From Nostoc sp. GT001 (GTDB taxonomy: Bacteria; Cyanobacteriota; Cyanobacteriia; Cyanobacteriales; Nostocaceae), in the NCBI RefSeq assembly GCF_030382115.1, contig NZ_JAUDRJ010000003.1:2901825-2965824 (forward strand): a stretch of 64,000 nt of DNA, given 5' to 3'. This document shows, piece after piece, positions 3,722 through 30,527 of this stretch (positions are counted from its first letter, which is position 1; the number at the start of each line of letters is the position of its first letter). A program made the translations under genes and the position numbers. Under the pieces are notes generated by a model. The model ran no database searches. It saw nothing but the letters and a program-made list of their open reading frames with translations, and was not told the origin of the DNA.

Positions 3722-5395
3722 GTGTCACAGCCTAATCCTACCCAAGTTTTTAAATTTGATTCGATTGATGCCGCTTTAGCAGACCTAAAAGCTGGTCGCG
3801 TCATTGTAGTGGTAGATGATGAAAATAGAGAAAATGAAGGCGACTTAATTTGTGCTGCCCAATTTGCCACACCCGACATGATTAATTTCATGGCGGTGGA
3901 AGCAAGAGGACTAATTTGTTTGGCAATGACAGGCGATCGCCTAGACGAGCTAGACTTACCCTTGATGGTAAGCAACATTACAGATACTAACCAAACTGCT
4001 TTCACTGTCAGTATTGATGCCGGGCCAGAATTAGGTGTCACCACAGGCATCTCAGCAGAAGACCGCGCCCGAACTATCCAGGTTACTCTCAACCCAGCCA
4101 CAAAACCCACCGATTTACGCCGTCCTGGTCATATTTTTCCCATTCGCGCTAGGACTGGAGGCGTACTCAAACGCGCAGGACATACGGAAGCCGCTGTGGA
4201 CTTAGCTAGACTAGCAGGGCTATACCCAGCGGGAGTAATTTGTGAAATTCAAAACTCTGATGGTTCAATGGCGCGGTTGCAGCAGTTAGTTGAATACGCT
4301 AAACGTCACAATTTAAAAATTATTAGTATTGCTGATTTAATAAGTTATCGCTTACAGCACGATCGCTTAGTTTATCGTGAGGTGATTACCAAGCTGCCTA
4401 GTCAATTCGGTCAGTTTGAAATTTACGCCTATCGCCATACTCTGGATAATACAGAACACGTTGCAATTGTCAAGGGCGATCCAGCTAACTTCAAAGATGA
4501 GCCTGTGATGGTGCGGATGCACTCAGAATGCTTAACTGGTGACGCTTTGGGGTCTTTGCGCTGCGATTGTCGGATGCAGCTTGAAGCTGCACTAAAAATG
4601 ATTGAGGCTGCTGGTCAAGGTGTAGTTGTATACCTGCGTCAAGAAGGGCGGGGAATTGGCTTGATTAATAAGCTGAAAGCCTACTCGTTGCAGGATATGG
4701 GACTGGATACAGTGGAAGCTAATGAGCGTTTGGGATTTCCTGCTGACTTGCGAGACTACGGGATGGGGGCACAAATGCTCATGGACTTGGGCATCAAAAA
4801 GATTCGCTTGATTACCAATAATCCTCGCAAAATTGCTGGAGTCAAAGGTTATGGATTGGAAGTAGTCGATCGCGTGCCATTGTTGATTGAGGCAACCGAT
4901 TACAATTCCTATTATCTAGCGACAAAGGCGAAAAAGCTGGGTCACATGCTGTTACAGACTTATCTGGTGACAGTAGCAATCCACTGGCAAGATGACCCGG
5001 AAGTTGTGACGGAACGTTATGAACGCTTAGAAAAACTGAGACACTTAGCGAAAACTAACGATCTATTGTTGCAGGAAGAAGCGCGTCCCTTGGCGATCGC
5101 TATATTTGACGAGCCATCTCTAACAGTACACTTGGGTTTTGATCAGGCAAAAGTTGCTAGCTGTGACTGGTATCAGCAGAGTGGTCATCCTTATATACAA
5201 GCTATCTTCCAAATTCTGGACAACCTCGCAACTTTGCCATACATCCAAAAACTAGAATTTCTGATTTCTTCTGGTTGCGATCCTTTGAGTAATTTACAAG
5301 TCCAACTAGATCGGCAGACATTTGCTGATGGTACATTGCCTTCATCAATTAGCGATCGCTTGGAGACGCAGCAAATTTACAGCTTTAGTAAGTAG
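3722..5395 (+). CDS. ribBA: bifunctional DHBP synthase / GTP cyclohydrolase II
   Basis: A fusion enzyme for the two entry reactions of riboflavin synthesis. The N-terminal half makes 3,4-dihydroxy-2-butanone 4-phosphate from ribulose 5-phosphate (motif [11 protein letters not shown] with the metal acids; [20 protein letters not shown]). The second half opens GTP (zinc-binding [16 protein letters not shown], then RQEGRGIGL). About 150 residues follow the catalytic core, ending QQIYSFSK; a long tail is usual in cyanobacterial RibBA. The frame is open from a TTG at 3683, but the GTG at 3722 gives [15 protein letters not shown], which fits the usual start better; neither has a convincing ribosome site. 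I see no FMN riboswitch in the leader. Confidence 0.95.
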
Positions 5396-5507
5396 CCACG
5401 GACTATATTATGTAGCGGTGCATTAGGCACTCATGTCATGTTTTTTGTGAATAACTACATCAAACAGCGGCGCCGCTTCCAATCGATCGCCCGATGCAAC
5501 GAGATTA

Positions 5508-5759
5508 TTATGCTGTCTCACCGTTTGCTGCTTGTGGCATTGACTCAATTAACGCCCTTAACACTTTATTAACCGATTCTGGTGTCGTGAAAACCTGAGC
5601 CACATCTTCATCTAAGACTACAACTGTTAATTGTTGCGTTCCACTACGGGCGGCAAAGCGATTGGGCTTTGCCTTTTGATAATCGAAGCGATACTCAGCT
5701 TGAAGCTCGTCGTCAGAATTTTGTGATTTTTCAAAAGGTGTTTCGTTCATAATCTTCAC
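5508..5759 (-). CDS. antitoxin, BrnA-like partner of the adjacent BrnT-type toxin
   Basis: An acidic protein of up to 83 residues that overlaps the end of the upstream toxin gene by 29 bp if started at 5759. A start at the internal ATG at 5750 (MNETPFEKSQ) is equally possible. The C-terminal half (TTPESVNKVLRALIESMP) resembles the helix-rich DNA-binding end of BrnA-type antitoxins. The central RFDYQKAKPNRFA segment is seen in many small cyanobacterial antitoxin-like proteins. It is expected to neutralise the toxin and autoregulate the pair. The function is inferred mainly from position, overlap and gene order; the sequence alone is weak. Confidence 0.6.
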   Translation of the reverse strand: MKIMNETPFEKSQNSDDELQAEYRFDYQKAKPNRFAARSGTQQLTVVVLDEDVAQVFTTPESVNKVLRALIESMPQAANGETA

Positions 5760-6009
5760 GTTCCTTTCGAGTAGCTAGACGGGCACTGATGATACGGATG
5801 GCATTGGAACGTTCAGTGAAAGAAATCAACAGCAAGAGATTTTGTTGAGAGTGACCAATAATGATTTCTCGCCGCTCATCTATAGAGTGCGCTTTATCAT
5901 CAAATATGACTGCCAAAGAATTGCTAAAGACAGTTTTGGCTTCTTCAAAGCTGACACCGTGCTTTTTCAAATTTGCGGCTGCTTTTGATTTATCCCACTC
6001 GAACTCCAT
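5731..6009 (-). CDS. brnT: BrnT-family toxin (ribonuclease-type)
   Basis: A 92-residue protein with the BrnT signature: N-terminal EFEWDKSKAAANLKKHGVSF, then EEAKTVFSNSLAVIFDDKAHS, then the ERREIIIGHSQ and IRIISARLATRKEREDYE strands and helix. BrnT toxins adopt a RelE-like fold and cleave RNA; the conserved Arg and Glu/Tyr residues of the C-terminal ISARxATxxERxxYE motif are all present, so the protein is probably active. It is the first gene of a two-gene minus-strand operon with the antitoxin, which is the usual toxin-first order of BrnTA. Confidence 0.88.
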   Translation of the reverse strand: MEFEWDKSKAAANLKKHGVSFEEAKTVFSNSLAVIFDDKAHSIDERREIIIGHSQQNLLLLISFTERSNAIRIISARLATRKEREDYERNTF

Positions 6010-6106
6010 GACCAGATCATATCCGATTAGCTATGCAGACGTGAATACAAGTACAGCAGAGTAATAATATACTGCAATTAAGTGTCATTGCTGTGGGGAA
6101 GGTACT

Positions 6107-6886
6107 TTGAAGATAAAATGGCGATCGCATCTCAAACCAAAACCAAAGAAACGCCGCCCTTCTTCAGAAGAAGACATACTTCACCTCAGACGAACTGGAC
6201 GTTATATCCCACCACCGCGTAAAAGTTGGCGAGATAAATTTATTGTTGTAGCTAAATCACCATTTTTGTGGATAGAAAGACGCTTGGTAGAACCTTTAGC
6301 GAACCTAGTTGATGGGGCTGATGTATTTCGGATATTAGAAAAGGTTGGCTTTTTAATAGCTGTGTTGGTTTTTCTCTTGGAAGTTGGGGAACGTAGGGAA
6401 AAATCAATCTTTGAGGCTTGGCAAGTAGTGAAGGACGGGCAAGGCGAAAAGTCAGGTGTAGTTGTGTTGGCGCTCGAAAGATTAAAAAAGGAAAATTTTA
6501 GTTTATCGGGAATCAACGTTGAGAAGACTAACCTCAGTGGTGCTTACCTCAGTAATGCTGACCTCAGCAATGCCAACCTCAGCTTTGCCTACATCTACAA
6601 TGCCAACCTCAACGGAGCCTTACTTATGGGTGCCAACCTCAGGAGTGCCAACCTCAGCTTTGCCAACCTCAGCGGTGCTGACTTCTACAATGCCAACCTG
6701 AAAGGTGCTGACCTTGCCTATCAGCTTGACATTACCGACCTCGGCAATGAGCTTGGCGTTGCCAACCTCAGCGGTGCAAAAAACTTAACTCCTGAGCAAG
6801 TTAAATCTGCTAAAAATTGGGAGCAAGCAATATACGATAAGGAATTTCGCGCCAAGCTTGGTTTACCACCAGAACCGATGAAGTAA
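6107..6886 (+). CDS. membrane-anchored pentapeptide-repeat protein
   Basis: A 259-residue protein starting at TTG 6107 (MKIKWRSHLKPKPKKRR), after a GGGGAAGG segment. The N-terminus is very basic, followed by a hydrophobic helix at about residues 85-95 (FLIAVLVFLLEVG) that should anchor it in a membrane. From about residue 130 the chain is A(N/D)LS repeats, at least 15 pentapeptides such as GAYLSNADLSNANLSFAYIYNANLNGA, forming a right-handed beta-helix. It ends GAKNLTPEQVKSAKNWEQA, a tail common to such proteins in cyanobacteria. The repeat DNA keeps a recurrent GCCAACCTCAGC unit. The biochemical function is unknown. Confidence 0.85.
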   Translation: MKIKWRSHLKPKPKKRRPSSEEDILHLRRTGRYIPPPRKSWRDKFIVVAKSPFLWIERRLVEPLANLVDGADVFRILEKVGFLIAVLVFLLEVGERREKSIFEAWQVVKDGQGEKSGVVVLALERLKKENFSLSGINVEKTNLSGAYLSNADLSNANLSFAYIYNANLNGALLMGANLRSANLSFANLSGADFYNANLKGADLAYQLDITDLGNELGVANLSGAKNLTPEQVKSAKNWEQAIYDKEFRAKLGLPPEPMK

Positions 6887-7298
6887 CTGTGGGAAGCACC
6901 TCAAAATAACTACATAATAAAACTACATGAGAGCATATTTTTTGGGAGCATCCCATTTTTGTAAACGTTATTGCGTTTGCAATGACATATTAAATTTTCT
7001 TATTTTAAGTATATTTGCCTCTGATGCTTTATTTTTAGAGTTAGAAACTACTTTGCGTAAGTCCTAGTTACATTCTAAAGTCGAGTGTGAAAACAAGATG
7101 ATACGCGATCGCTCTCCAAGCTTCTACTTTTTAGCTCAGAACACGAAACACCGAGTTCGGAACTCGAAGTATCGAGATAAAAACGCCAGAGTTGAATTCT
7201 TTAAAGAAGAGTGGGGATTAGAGAGTGAGGGAGAAGAATTAATAACCAATGCCCCATGCCCAATGCCCCATGCCCAATGCCCCATTCCCCATTCCCAA
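6887..7298. other. non-coding gap with repeats
   Basis: No convincing gene. A short hairpin TGGGAGCATCCCATTTTT at 6943-6960 may end the pentapeptide gene. From about 7247 to 7300 there is an array of ATGCCCA/ATGCCCC heptamers that reaches the 3' end of flv1. A plus-strand frame at 7098-7355 runs through this array and overlaps flv1; I judge it spurious. Confidence 0.6.
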
Positions 7299-25746: not shown

Positions 25747-25761
25747 TTAATTACTGTTTTG
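25747..25761 (-). pseudogene. tatA: tatA 3' exon (downstream of the group II intron)
   Basis: After removal of the outer intron the 5' exon (...GAAGAAGA) joins sequence beginning CAAAACAGTAATTAA or AAAACAGTAATTAA, depending on the exact 3' splice site. Joining at the second gives the tail EEENSN and a stop just before the terminator; joining at the first reads on into the terminator stem. The junction is uncertain by one base. The exon is only a few codons long. Confidence 0.5.
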
Positions 25762-25796
25762 GTTGAGTCGATGGGGGATATTATTCCCCGCACCTC

Positions 25797-26831
25797 TCAG
25801 TTAAATCTGGGCGTGCGACTTTCACCGCACCCAGCTTCCGATGTTCTTAGCTTTGTGCTTTTGCTCATGTGCTTGTAATCGTGGCAACTCTCATGAATTG
25901 CTTCAAGATTATTCTTTTTCCAGTTGGCATGATTTCCGTCGATGTGATGTAGGTGAACCCGTTCCTCATCGATGAATTTTAAACCGCAGGAAGCACATCT
26001 ATGGTTTTGCTTCTTAAGAGCTTTAGAGGTTTCGCCGTCATAGAGTTTACTGTTACGTTCACTCCAGTAGGCTGTATCTCCGTCATAGGGGGATTTAGTT
26101 CCTTTGACAGGGACGTGTTTGTGTTCGGAGTAGGGAACTGCTGGGAATGCTTTGTCTAGTAATTTCTTACTGGAGTAGCGATTTAGTTTGGTTTCCTTGT
26201 TAAATACCTTTTTTGCTCTTGTTTCGATGTGGTATAACGAGTCTCTAGCCCCGTCCATCTTACAGAACTTATGGTAATTTCTCCAACCTCTAACTACCGG
26301 GGCTAATTTCTCAGCCTTTGTGGCAGCACCATAATTCGAGTTGTTGACGATGTGTTTTACTTTCTTACGGAATGCTTTGAAGTTGTCCACTGAGGGAGTA
26401 CTTCTGAACTTTCCGTTGCTCTGCACTTTGAAGTGCCAGCCGAGGAAATCAAACCCATCTGTCGCGGCGGTAACTTTGGTTTTCTTTTGGCTTACATTCA
26501 TTCCGCGTTTGCGGAGGAACTCGCTGATTCTTTCAAGTATTTCTATCGCATCATCTTGGGGGCGAAGTATAATAACCATGTCATCCGCGTATCGGACTGA
26601 TGGTTCGCTCATTGTCCCTTTTGCCCACCCTTCAGTTTGGTATCTGTGTATACTCTCAATCCCGTTGAGTGCGATATTGGCTAGTAATGGGCTAACTACT
26701 CCCCCTTGAGGTGTACCCTGTTCGGGGAATTCTGGGTTTACTCCAGTCTTGAGGCATCGGTAGATACCGAGTTTTAAGCCTTTGGGAGCGATGAGTTCAT
26801 CCATTATCGCTGAGTGGTTAATCCTGTCGAA
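25797..26831 (-). CDS. outer intron-encoded protein, 3' part (RT catalytic box, maturase, HNH)
   Basis: The frame resumes FDRINHSAIMDELIAPKGLK at 26831 immediately after the nested intron. It contains GTPQGGVVSPLLANIAL, the catalytic YADD box in SVRYADDMVII, the thumb/maturase domain X (FDFLGWHFKV ... VRGWRNYHKF) and a C-terminal HNH endonuclease (CASC ... HLHHIDGNH ... CHDYKH). All key residues are present, so splicing of the nested intron would give a complete protein of about 534 residues. The last 13 codons (EAGCGESRTPRFN) run through domain V of the ribozyme. An in-frame ATG at 26804 is unlikely to be a real start. Confidence 0.88.
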   Translation of the reverse strand, partial: FDRINHSAIMDELIAPKGLKLGIYRCLKTGVNPEFPEQGTPQGGVVSPLLANIALNGIESIHRYQTEGWAKGTMSEPSVRYADDMVIILRPQDDAIEILERISEFLRKRGMNVSQKKTKVTAATDGFDFLGWHFKVQSNGKFRSTPSVDNFKAFRKKVKHIVNNSNYGAATKAEKLAPVVRGWRNYHKFCKMDGARDSLYHIETRAKKVFNKETKLNRYSSKKLLDKAFPAVPYSEHKHVPVKGTKSPYDGDTAYWSERNSKLYDGETSKALKKQNHRCASCGLKFIDEERVHLHHIDGNHANWKKNNLEAIHESCHDYKHMSKSTKLRTSEAGCGESRTPRFN

Positions 26832-29233
26832 AGTGGGTAGCTAGCTAGCGAGGTTTCCAAGCCTTGGCTCCTTTTCTAACTAGCCCCCTCCGAACCGTGC
26901 TTACGAGTTTCCAGGTACACGGCTCTCCAGTACTCTGTTATCGCGAGACTTGTTGAGATATTGGTTTACCAGCGTGTATTGCATCATGGCATTGAGGGCA
27001 AACCATGAGAGTTTTTCTTCTACGTGCGGACATGATTTGCATCCATTGCGGTTTTTCTTTCTTGCCTTTAATTTTGAGGTCTTTAAGGGCATGAATATGG
27101 TGAACTTCAATATCACCTGTTGCCCCGCAAATCTCACATTCCGAAGCAAGAAGCCGTTTAATCAGTTCATTTCTGAACGCGGGTTTTCGCACTCGTGGCA
27201 AATCTTCTATGGTTGCTTTTAAGTTGCGTTTTAATTGTATGCCCCCGAAACGAGTTACCAAGGGTTTCTTACCTTCTACTGGGACGGTTATTTCAACACA
27301 CTTTCTCCTTCCTTGTGGAAGTTTTACCGTCTTCTGGTACTTGGCGCAGATTTTGGCTACGCTAGTTTTGTGTTTACAGGCAAGGGTTTTCATTAACGAA
27401 CTCCACATAACCCATTGGAGTTTACGGAGCCATGCAATGTTTTGAGCAAGGCTGTAGAATTGTACGTAGCCTCTGAGTTCTGATTGGTAAATGTTAATGA
27501 TAGTAAAATCATCGTCATTTATTAACTCAGGACGATGAATGGGTTTGCCATTCCTCATATAAAGAGCGCATTTTCCTTCTACAAAACTTGCTGGGATTCT
27601 TAGTGCAGTAATTCCATTAAGTGAGCGTTTACCATTGGTATGCTTATTGTCGGAATATTGAACTAAGATTTCGTAACCTAAGAAGTTCGCTGCTTCATTT
27701 CTGGCATTAGTAATTAAGGTCTTTTCTGCTGACATTTCTAACTGAAGATTGTCGGCTAGGAATGTCTTTAGTTTTTCCTTAATTTCTTTTGCTTCTTGAA
27801 GTGAACCAATGAAACCAAGTAGAAAATCATCAGCATAGCGGACGTAATTTAGCCTTCTGTATTCTGGGTCACGGACATCTTTGGAGGGCATTTTCTGGTA
27901 TTTAATCTCCAGTTGACGCGCTTTATCGAATTGTCCATTTTTCCTGTAATACCAAGCAAGTTTTACGAGCCTTGAATACTCTCGATTTTCTGCCCGACAT
28001 TTACCTCGTGTATATTCTGGAATGACTGTCTGTTCGACAAAATTATCTAGCTTATCAAGGTAAATATTTGCGAGTATGGGTGAGACAATCGACCCTTGTG
28101 GCGTTCCACTCAGTGTAGAATGGTATCTCCATTGCTCACAGTAACCTGCCGTTAATAAGGTTTCAATCAATCTCAAAAATCGATTATCTTGGATTTTCTC
28201 ACGGAGAATTGACATTAAGATTTTCTGATCTATATTGTCAAAACAACCACGGATATCTCCTTCAATAAACCATTTGGTTCCTTGCCAAGTGCGGTCTATT
28301 ACTGTTAATGCAGTATGGCATCCACGCTCTTGTCGAAAACCATGACTGCTGTTAGAAAATTGGGGTTCGTAGTACGCTTCTAATATCAAACGTATTACTT
28401 CCTGAACCAATTTATCGTTCCAAGTGGGAATGCCCAGTGGTCGCGTTTTCCCATTTTTCTTGGGAATATTAATTCGCCGTACTGGTGTCCATCGAAAACG
28501 TTCATAGCGAATATCTTCTATGAGGTTTTCAATCTTTTTGATGGACATCCCATCCACAGTCTCTGATGTAACTCCTTGCGTCATTGCCCCATTATTTTTG
28601 TAAATGCGACTGTACGCCAAGAGGTACAGGTTAGGATTGAAAAGTTGCCTGTAGACATCATCCAGAGGTAAACCACGATTTCCTCTGTCTCGGATTACAC
28701 TTAAAACCGTTTCGGCGTTTCGCATCTCGCGTACCTCCCGATATAAGTGTGAAGAATACCTGTTCTCCTTTGCCATGTAAGCGGCTTTCCCGCTCTCGGA
28801 CTACTATGAGAACTCTGTAACCATAGGGGTCGCCCCCCGTAAGTCATCCCGCGCTTTATTAACTCGATACGTAGTAGTGTGATTTAGGTGTCCCATTCAT
28901 TCGTTAAGCCATCTCATCGCTGGCTGACTCCGTTTGAAGAAGTTGTGTGGTTCAAATGTTTAAAACTACACACAAACGATTATTCCTGTTAGGCGTTGTA
29001 GGAATAGGCAATCGAATATACCGTCAGAATTAGGCTTCAGGTAGTTTAACCTTCACCCTGTCACACAAGTCTTGCCGGACTCTAGTTTTAACGCCTTCTC
29101 TCTATTTCCGGCTTTACCAACATGCGGTTGTTCCTTTTGTCTTTCGACTCTAGGTAAGTTGGTTGACTTAGAGATGTTCTTCTTAATCTCTCCCAATTTG
29201 ATTGGGGATACCGCGTTAACTGTCACGGCGCAC
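26832..29233 (-). mobile_element. nested group II intron inside the outer intron's RT gene (twintron)
   Basis: The 5' end GTGCGCCGTGACAG at 29233 follows the codons for IELDIEKC of the outer RT. Domain V is unmistakable at 26892-26925 (GAGCCGTGTACCTGGAAACT ... AGCACGGTTC). A domain VI stem follows (GGGGGCTAGTTAG ... CTAGCTAGCTACCC). The 3' end is at 26832 or 26833, and exact joining TGC/TTC restores ...DIEKC-FDRINH... of motif A in the outer RT. The length is about 2.4 kb. It carries its own complete intron-encoded protein. About 460 bp from 29233 to the ORF start hold ribozyme domains I-IV. Confidence 0.9.
26938..28776 (-). CDS. nested intron-encoded reverse transcriptase/maturase with HNH domain
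   Basis: A 612-residue multifunctional protein. In order: RT0-like N-terminus (RNAETVLSVIRDRGNRGLPL), RT palm and fingers with IPKKNGKTRPLGIPTWNDKLVQE, motif A EGDIRGCFDNID, GTPQGSIVSPILANIYLDKLD, catalytic YADD in LNYVRYADDFLLGF, thumb, maturase domain X (about 400-540), and an HNH domain (CEIC ... EVHHIHALKD ... CPQCHDAIHAGK) at the C-terminus. It is full length with all catalytic residues, so it is probably functional in splicing and retrohoming of its own intron. It resembles the chloroplast-like class of cyanobacterial introns and is not closely similar to the outer protein. Confidence 0.95.
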   Translation of the reverse strand: MAKENRYSSHLYREVREMRNAETVLSVIRDRGNRGLPLDDVYRQLFNPNLYLLAYSRIYKNNGAMTQGVTSETVDGMSIKKIENLIEDIRYERFRWTPVRRINIPKKNGKTRPLGIPTWNDKLVQEVIRLILEAYYEPQFSNSSHGFRQERGCHTALTVIDRTWQGTKWFIEGDIRGCFDNIDQKILMSILREKIQDNRFLRLIETLLTAGYCEQWRYHSTLSGTPQGSIVSPILANIYLDKLDNFVEQTVIPEYTRGKCRAENREYSRLVKLAWYYRKNGQFDKARQLEIKYQKMPSKDVRDPEYRRLNYVRYADDFLLGFIGSLQEAKEIKEKLKTFLADNLQLEMSAEKTLITNARNEAANFLGYEILVQYSDNKHTNGKRSLNGITALRIPASFVEGKCALYMRNGKPIHRPELINDDDFTIINIYQSELRGYVQFYSLAQNIAWLRKLQWVMWSSLMKTLACKHKTSVAKICAKYQKTVKLPQGRRKCVEITVPVEGKKPLVTRFGGIQLKRNLKATIEDLPRVRKPAFRNELIKRLLASECEICGATGDIEVHHIHALKDLKIKGKKEKPQWMQIMSARRRKTLMVCPQCHDAIHAGKPISQQVSR

Positions 29234-29803
29234 GCACTTCTCGATATCGAGTTCGATAACTCGTTTCTCTATTCCGTTAGCGTTTGAGCTTAGGTTGCTA
29301 AAGATGTACTTTTGTGCATCATGGGCAGAGCGCCCAGTTCTAAACCCATAGCTCCTAGCGTGGAAGGTGGCTTCGTGCGCTGGTTCGAGTGCATATTTTG
29401 CGAGGCATTGCCAAGCTCTATCCGCGATGGTTGGTATCTTAAGCATTCTGGTTGTCCCGTCCTTTTTAGGGATGGGGATTTCCCGTAATCCTTGATGCTT
29501 CCAATTTCCGCTATTCATTTTCAGTAGTTCTTCTAAATTGAAGCGTTCCTCAAATGAAAGGGATTTCTTACCATCAATACCAGCCGTCTTCTTACCAGCA
29601 TTTAGCTGAGATACTTGTCTAATTGCAAGAAATCGAGCCGAGGTGGATTTTAGAATAAGCTTTTGGAGTGACCTAGCTTTCCGCTTGTCTCCAACTTGAA
29701 CCGCTTTGTACACGCGCTTTTGAAGGCGGAAAAGGTTACGGCGGAATTTCTTCCACGGTAAAGCTCTCCAAGATTCACTAGTATGTCTACTGTGTCTAAT
29801 CAT
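29234..29803 (-). CDS. outer intron-encoded protein, 5' part (interrupted RT)
   Basis: The 190 codons from MIRHSRHTSESWRALPWKKF to IELDIEKC encode the N-terminal RT region (TAGIDGKKSL, IPIPKKDGTTRMLKIPTIADRAWQ, ARSYGFRTGRSAHDAQ). Without splicing, translation would run five codons into the nested intron and stop (VRRDS). The open frame resumes at 26831. The interruption falls within RT motif A, between Cys and the Phe-Asp of the FD dipeptide, so no RT activity is possible unless the nested intron is removed. Confidence 0.88.
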
Positions 29804-30364
29804 TTTCTCTTCGAGAGTTTGTGTATTCTGAACACCTCAGACCAATTACGGTCTGTCCTACCCGAATTGTGGGGATTCCTCCGCTCGTCTGGGCTACTTT
29901 GGGGTTCGACCGCCCCTAGACCCACAATTCGTTTTTATTCGTTCCCTCGGAGAGATTGATTGTTCCTTTAGGTGTAGCCAATTCAACCATTGGATTCCCT
30001 GGACTCTTGCCGCTTCTAGAAAAGTGATGCGGCGGGAATAATCTCCAATGAAGTCAGGGTTTTTTGTGTTGCGCCCCGCTTTCAGGTAGGTCACTTTTAT
30101 AGGCTCTGTTTCACCGTGGGAACTCCCTGTTAGCGCCAGTGTCAACCCGCAACGGTCGTCTGGTTGCGCCCTGTTCCCAGCTTCACTCTACAAGAACCGA
30201 GCTTGTTCGGTGTGGGCAGGTAAGGAGTCAATTCTGAGTCTGAATGGTAGGACTTTCACCTACATCTGACCGAGAGTTCAGCCTTTAGTGACAGTAATCT
30301 GCTGTCGGGCTGGATTAGTTATTTACGGACTGATTACCGTGATTTGCTAATCAACGAATCGCAC
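29804..30364 (-). other. 5' ribozyme region (domains I-IV) of the outer intron
   Basis: Non-coding RNA structure region of about 560 bp between the intron 5' end and the start of its protein gene. Several local inverted repeats are visible. An 83-codon minus-strand frame at 29894-30145 here is not a gene. Confidence 0.7.
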
Positions 30365-30527
30365 TCTTCTTCCTGATTGGTTTCCTCGCTGGGAGTTTTC
30401 ATCTCCTCCTTAAAACCTCGTAAGGTTTTGCCCAGTGCAGTCCCCAGTTCAGGAATTTTTTTGGACTGAAAATTAGAATAGCGACTATGCTAATTACAGC
30501 TATTTCTGGCCATCCCAGTCCAAACAT
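30365..30527 (-). pseudogene. tatA: tatA 5' exon, frameshifted Sec-independent translocase subunit
   Basis: ATG 30527 after AGAGGAAATTTAT begins MFGLGWPEIAVISIVAILIF, the single transmembrane helix of TatA/E. The next residues read SPKK, where the family has GPKK. A run of seven A (T7 at 30456-30462 on the plus strand) then puts the chain out of frame. With one more A the frame gives IPELGTALGKTLRGFKEEMK, the conserved amphipathic helix. The gene is further interrupted by the outer group II intron after ...ETNQEE. So it is a decayed gene, or it depends on slippage plus splicing. TatA forms the pore for folded twin-arginine substrates. Confidence 0.85.

Follow-up and report, generated by a model that had tools for sequence, protein, structure and literature searches.

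A group II intron nested in the reverse transcriptase gene of another in Nostoc sp. GT001, and relatives that recur at the same codon boundary

When one group II intron is found inside another, did it land there once, or does it belong to a lineage that seeks out other introns? The question is raised by a locus in a window of 64,000 nucleotides from Nostoc sp. GT001 (the window being the whole stretch of DNA that was analysed). An earlier reading of this window, made from the sequence alone, had proposed a complete intron lying within the reverse transcriptase (RT) gene of a second intron, itself inserted in tatA, and had singled out both the target, the catalytic palm of a rival RT, and the host gene as noteworthy. 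By comparing the locus with its copies in the same genome, with its relatives in other cyanobacteria and with described twintrons, we asked which parts of this proposal hold, and what the position of the inner intron implies for its mode of spread.

At the level of sequence, locus 25761..30364 is confirmed as a group II twintron, with the inner intron lodged in the RT gene of the outer one. The outer intron extends on the minus strand from 30364 to 25761 (4604 bases, insert included) within tatA, and carries a GTGYG 5' end, a domain V/VI (25839-25762, minus strand; Rfam RF00029, 52.8 bits), an RT and a pairing of EBS1 and EBS2 with its exon. Its RT gene is found in two parts on the same strand, an N-terminal one (29234..29803) with RVT_N and the first part of RVT_1, ending in LDIEKC, and a C-terminal one (25797..26831) that starts with FDRINH and holds the remainder of RVT_1, YADD and GIIM. 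Between them lies the inner intron (29233-26832, minus strand, 2402 bases), which opens with GTGCGCC, thus with the group II GTGYG signature (GTGCG at 29233), and closes with its own domain V/VI (26927-26832, minus strand; RF00029, 51.0 bits), so that both proposed 3' ends were borne out by a domain V match. The insertion point separates C from F in DIEKC|FDRINH, within motif A of the outer RT, just after what we take to be the codon of the catalytic Asp of this motif.

The inner boundaries do not depend on motif matches, since the same genome holds two outer-intron copies free of the insert, E (C3:5.41 Mb) and F (C3:1.45 Mb), which carry TGCTTC as contiguous bases and permit a single placement of the 2402-base insert; a shifted inner 5' splice site (GTGCGTGCG) was ruled out on the same ground. 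Joining the flanks at TGC|TTC yields a single open frame (201+344 codons) that contains YADD, in agreement with the exact frame restoration that had been predicted: a complete intron lies within an intron, and its removal rebuilds the interrupted frame. Chance can be excluded, because the genome holds six near-full copies of the outer intron and four of the inner one, all of the latter nested at one place.

The two elements appear to be of different classes. The inner intron encodes a 612-aa protein (26938..28776, minus strand) with RVT_1 (YADD), Intron_maturas2 and an AI2M-like HNH domain, as the sequence-only reading had described, and the closest solved structure to its RT is LtrA (5g2x, E=1.3e-120); its score against TIGR04416 is 279.9 bits, below the cut-off of 300. 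In the outer protein, an HNH match falls barely below the Pfam cut-off (20.1 vs 21.4 bits), and the uninterrupted copy E encodes an RT with RVT_N and GIIM that is closest to the maturase RT 6me0, which we take to be TeI4h. Assuming ML as the class name for LtrA-like introns and CL for that of the outer one, these affinities suggest an ML-like intron inside a CL-like intron. Strong constraint is apparent in the inner RT, with dN/dS values of 0.09-0.12 (four elements compared); for the outer RT, the values are 0.12-0.18 (four copies in the Nostoc sp. GT001 genome).

Within this genome, the outer 5' part is represented by the six near-full copies and two partial matches, and the four inner copies (A to D, A being that of the window) are all nested at the same site. 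Copies A, B and D are identical in both introns save for Ns and small indels, including one additional base in copy D, three bases ahead of the junction, while their flanking loci differ; they were possibly copied as whole twintrons and are not counted as independent homing events. Copy C, on another contig (L022, G000:C1:197500-207500), is of a different kind. Its inner intron shows 0 substitutions over 2401 aligned bases, with 5 indel bases, but its outer intron is only 88.6% identical to that of the window in the 5' part and 84.8% in the 3' part, where similarity ends at base 717 of 1071; outside the insert, the outer sequences begin to differ 7 bases upstream of one junction and 6 bases downstream of the other. 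A substitution-free inner intron in a diverged outer one points to a separate event that hit the same nucleotide. With a degenerate pattern of the target (at most 2 mismatches), four more sites were located in the genome that are empty, three of them within RT matches and the fourth in a 44-base match outside the listed RT matches; the reversed pattern gave none. These unoccupied matches count against the reading that is retained below. There is no sign that sites E and F, both empty, resist insertion, as the core of E matches the occupied sites.

To learn whether homologous RT genes elsewhere carry the inner intron too, searches were run with the inner RT or the inner intron DNA as bait. Among 388 genomes of the order, eight, the present one included, give a match at E <= 1e-140, and four of these eight hold a second type of element, located in domain V and described below. 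One scan of genome contigs gave 17 loci, and three plasmid records held 78-100% of the intron, one of them (H2) being the same plasmid place as L046. After exclusion of L055 (domain-V type), L058 (a fragment with unreadable ends) and L059 (distant, 33%), the tally comprised 21 elements that could be read at one boundary or both: the four copies of the present genome, 14 loci of the contig scan, and L060, L061 and L063. In 20 of these 21 similarity-found elements the insertion splits motif A of a group II RT precisely at the junction of its C and F codons, with both ends readable in 17 of them, the 5' end only in L054 and L061, and the 3' end only in L056. The sole ectopic element, L051 of Brasilonema (4537-7113), interrupts a non-RT frame at DNA that resembles the motif-A site. 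Hosts are mostly Nostocales; Microseira (L056) is placed by the NCBI taxonomy in a different order. This near-constant return to one codon boundary gives the inner intron the look of a parasite specialised on other introns. Close to one of the Calothrix twintrons, a c-di-AMP riboswitch was also observed (L045, 1860-2001, minus strand).

Among the 17 elements with two readable ends, identity between host RTs ranges from 31 to 100%, a spread that inner introns of one genome do not share. Four inner copies in Scytonema differ by 0 substitutions in host RTs that are 37-78% identical, and four in Calothrix by 0-1 substitutions in host RTs that are 69-100% identical (indels uncounted in both cases). 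Could the twintron have arisen once and spread only as a composite, its identity reflecting composite retromobility instead of repeated inner homing? Such movement would account for copies A, B and D, and for Calothrix L048 and L050, which, at two places, have ~4.56 kb in common with a single mismatch. Composite spread as the only route is contradicted by near-identical inner introns in strongly differing outer ones, as in copy C, in the four Scytonema copies and in the three Calothrix host types (L045, L046 and L048/L050), and we regard it as very improbable; the identical twintrons at different loci may reflect either composite movement or reinvasion. We give hardly any credence to a second alternative, gene conversion among old insertions, which the identity or near-identity of same-genome copies would fit. 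In copy C, which was examined base by base, a conversion tract would have to end almost at the intron ends, and none was seen to end inside the inner intron; between genera, the inner intron of Komarekiella L043 shows 23 substitutions in ~2400 bases relative to that of the window, in a host RT that is merely 66% identical. Repeated and recent homing of the inner intron into a conserved site is the reading that we retain, the recent spread being evident from the sequences themselves, and part of the outer RT divergence may be older than the inner insertions.

The state of the interrupted host genes bears on whether these nests are still functional. All 17 joined host RTs keep YADD, and in 12 of them the N-terminal half is long and open; in copy D, L043, L046, L053 and L057 it is broken or fragmentary, or a contig end truncates it. 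Some inner introns are themselves damaged, L053 being without ~355 bases and L051, L056 and L057 carrying insertions. A dead nest, in which the inner intron is left unspliced and the outer RT is permanently inactive, would agree with the early end of similarity in the outer 3' part of copy C, with the indels in copies C and D, that of D lying beside the junction, and with the five hosts devoid of a long continuous N-half. The strong constraint on the inner RT between species (dN/dS about 0.1), the exact frame restoration and domain V/VI matches of the window copy, and the recent age of the copies speak against it, and as a general account we consider it unlikely. The same genome also encodes outer RTs whose open frame of 537 codons is uninterrupted, and these could supply protein in trans to the split outer introns. 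Two elements showed further rearrangements. In L053 (contig of L062), the RT halves around 496 and 2542 resemble different outer introns, with ~99% identity over 71 residues and 45% identity to copy E; this mosaic and the missing inner bases may stem from recombination between inner copies or from mis-assembly. In Microseira L056 (contig of L064, 6494-10941), the inner-type intron is interrupted by an insert of ~4.4 kb that holds another group II RT and a domain V/VI in reverse orientation.

How would such a site be recognised? Models of domains I-IV gave no Rfam match for either intron at a relaxed threshold, and exon-binding sites were therefore taken from alignment and pairing scans. For the outer intron, the likely EBS1 is TTTTCT (30018..30023, minus strand), which pairs with AGAAGA in tatA and also with the exon end in copy B, and the likely EBS2 is CTACCTGA (30082..30089, minus strand), which pairs at 8/8 positions with the 5' exon of copy B and, judged by eye, at 7/8 with tatA. 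For the inner intron, IBS1 is AAGTGC (29234..29239, minus strand), formed by the outer RT codons for K-C, and its likely partner EBS1 is ACATTT (28954..28959, minus strand; inner nt 275-280), which pairs at 5/6 positions with a mismatch at -1 in the window copy, and at 6/6 in L044 and L045. In a domain I alignment of 13 elements (eight of the motif-A type, L051 included, and five of the domain-V type), this window was the best gap-free set of six columns against the last six exon bases, with 60/78 paired positions against 55 for the runner-up. Pairing reached 42/48 positions in the eight motif-A-type elements and 27/30 in the five domain-V elements, where it lies one column further in a register chosen post hoc from the alignment. 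In the unshifted register, cognate pairing (4.6 of 6) is only slightly above cross-clade pairing (4.05 of 6), and the inner EBS1 is therefore given as likely, unproved by covariation. A candidate at nt 291-297, returned by a plain complementarity scan, was set aside, its register falling short of the splice site and the alignment favouring nt 275-280. Inner EBS2, CGGTAT (29018..29023, minus strand; inner nt 211-216), is tentative, rival pairings scoring equal or better.

The place of the twintron in tatA proved to be of less consequence. Matches to tatA were obtained in 50 of 53 genus genomes (own included), and the best 16 loci, one of them that of the window, were compared. In all 15 best-matching relatives, intron-free tatA reads ...GAAGAAGA directly joined to AAAACA(G/A)T(A/G)A, which sets the last base of the outer intron at 25761, the Rfam match ending at 25762. 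The insertion point consequently lies two codons ahead of the stop, with a 5' exon at 30365..30527 and a 3' exon at 25751..25760 (both minus strand), the latter comprising the last base of the split codon, two codons and the stop. Unspliced read-through in the native frame would replace the final two residues by nine. In addition, the 5' exon is one base shorter, within an A-run, than in 15/15 of these relatives, so that the gene is frameshifted as assembled, by a possible real lesion or assembly error; the latter is conceivable because Ns and indels also occur in other intron copies. The proposed dependence of tatA expression on both introns was not upheld, as an insertion so near the stop in a frameshifted exon makes tatA a poor argument for regulation by introns. 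While the RT palm retains its interest as a target, tatA was dropped as a point of interest after comparison with its intron-free relatives, its role as host being incidental, since the outer intron is present at other loci too.

More distant relatives of the inner intron occupy another part of their hosts. Their RTs are 53-60% identical to the inner RT, an additional element (L096) being found through their own RT, and all seven elements with a readable boundary interrupt domain V of a different group II intron, just past the terminal loop (both ends readable in L065, L066 and L067, the 5' end only in L055 and L068, and the 3' end only in L069 and L096). Sites were assigned by eye from the flanks, and the joined flanks fold as a domain V hairpin for L066 and L065, without such a fold for L067. 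In Fischerella muscicola (L055, from 1885-2121), a domain-V-type intron was observed in domain V of a motif-A-type intron; by its position in the sequence, it parasitises the parasite itself.

In the RT tree, the eight motif-A-type rows are grouped with a support of 100/100, and the six domain-V rows are separated from them (100/100). An intron of Megaera groups with the domain-V rows (100/99), and may fall among them. Four outgroup introns were examined (Megaera, E. coli, Serratia and Streptomyces), two of which lie in or beside genes outside introns, that of Megaera in an annotated HU gene and that of E. coli beside a single-strand-binding-protein gene. With the HU-gene intron grouped in this way, the deeper branching unsettled and long outgroup branches flagged by the tree program, a single origin of intron-targeting is not established. 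The same data bear on why such targets are used. Insertion in the palm might have been selected as a means of control over a competitor RT, whose mobility would follow only after inner splicing; the recurrence of the catalytic palm in 20/21 cases and the choice of ribozyme domain V by the more distant relatives fit this intron conflict. Sequence conservation alone could explain the choice of target, and two of the four outgroup introns are in or beside ordinary genes, which leaves selected conflict doubtful in our view.

Taken together, these observations very probably reflect a CL-type intron in tatA, into whose RT gene an ML-type intron of a motif-A-homing family has retrohomed. The inner intron would belong to a cyanobacterial, mostly Nostocales, family whose usual homing DNA is that encoding D-I-(E/A)-K-C|F-D-(R/K)-I in group II RT genes. 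Group II introns insert by reverse splicing into DNA, and the inner intron RNA with its protein would most likely reverse-splice into motif-A DNA, recognition probably depending in part on EBS1-IBS1 pairing (ACATTT or GCATTT with AARTGY) and on further contacts too. Once spliced out, the inner intron would leave the reading frame of the outer RT exactly restored, and insertion may for that reason cost the host intron little, while the inner intron would gain a target that mobile introns keep multiplying. From this arrangement, we infer that splicing and mobility of the outer intron would be conditional on prior splicing of the inner one. We hold the balance even on a broader proposal, that related cyanobacterial introns are parasites homing on the least-changeable sequences of their hosts, motif A in one clade and domain V in another, which would combine a broad host range across intron classes, a self-multiplying target and a host mobility conditional on splicing of the parasite.

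Homing of introns into introns has already been described, so that the general phenomenon is known and the Nostoc case is a variant of it. The closest parallel is found in the TeI4/TeI3 twintrons of Thermosynechococcus elongatus, where identical inner introns at one site of diverged outer introns were read as recent independent insertions (Mohr et al. 2010, PMC2882425), and the Nostoc genome likewise holds identical inner introns at one site in diverged outer ones. The inner introns of T. elongatus have no ORF and are placed between the first and second ATG of the outer ORF, leaving an RT possible without splicing (PMC2882425), whereas that of Nostoc is of a different class, bears a 612 aa RT ORF and splits the catalytic palm; it is thus no ORF-less inner intron between two outer starts. 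A cyanobacterial twintron in a protein gene, with an ORF in both introns, is also known from Trichodesmium, where the RNase HI-associated twintron was described as the sole bacterial one of its kind and inner splicing most probably comes first; its inner intron occupies domain I of the intron that hosts it, unlike the motif-A position in Nostoc (Pfreundt and Hess 2015, PMC4649490). In the plastid of Porphyridium, mat1f similarly provides an ORF-bearing inner intron at one site of two different outer introns, but these encode truncated protein remnants, a remnant of domain IV is targeted, and the inner intron also occurs alone in atpB (Perrineau et al. 2015, PMC4476101). A review also describes, for Methanosarcina, introns that repeatedly home into others, with up to five nested introns and no coding exons in M. 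acetivorans (PMC4424553), and the program of one survey misses the outer introns of twintrons (PMC8919778). Among the matches listed from the open-licence PMC literature, as available in part, no bacterial intron family homing into RT motif A or domain V was recognised, and an earlier description is possible; apparently new, within these sources, is a family that brings its own RT and targets the RT palm in host introns of different classes, with relatives at domain V.

These elements may thus offer a testable parasite-host system among mobile introns, in which one homing site is shared by many diverged hosts, a single genome presents both filled and unfilled sites, and distant relatives have chosen domain V. 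It could be asked whether a hardly changeable catalytic target widens the host range, and whether the host is held back in its spread by the parasite. For genome annotation, our results carry a warning, as an apparently truncated intron RT in a cyanobacterium may instead be one that an inner intron has divided.
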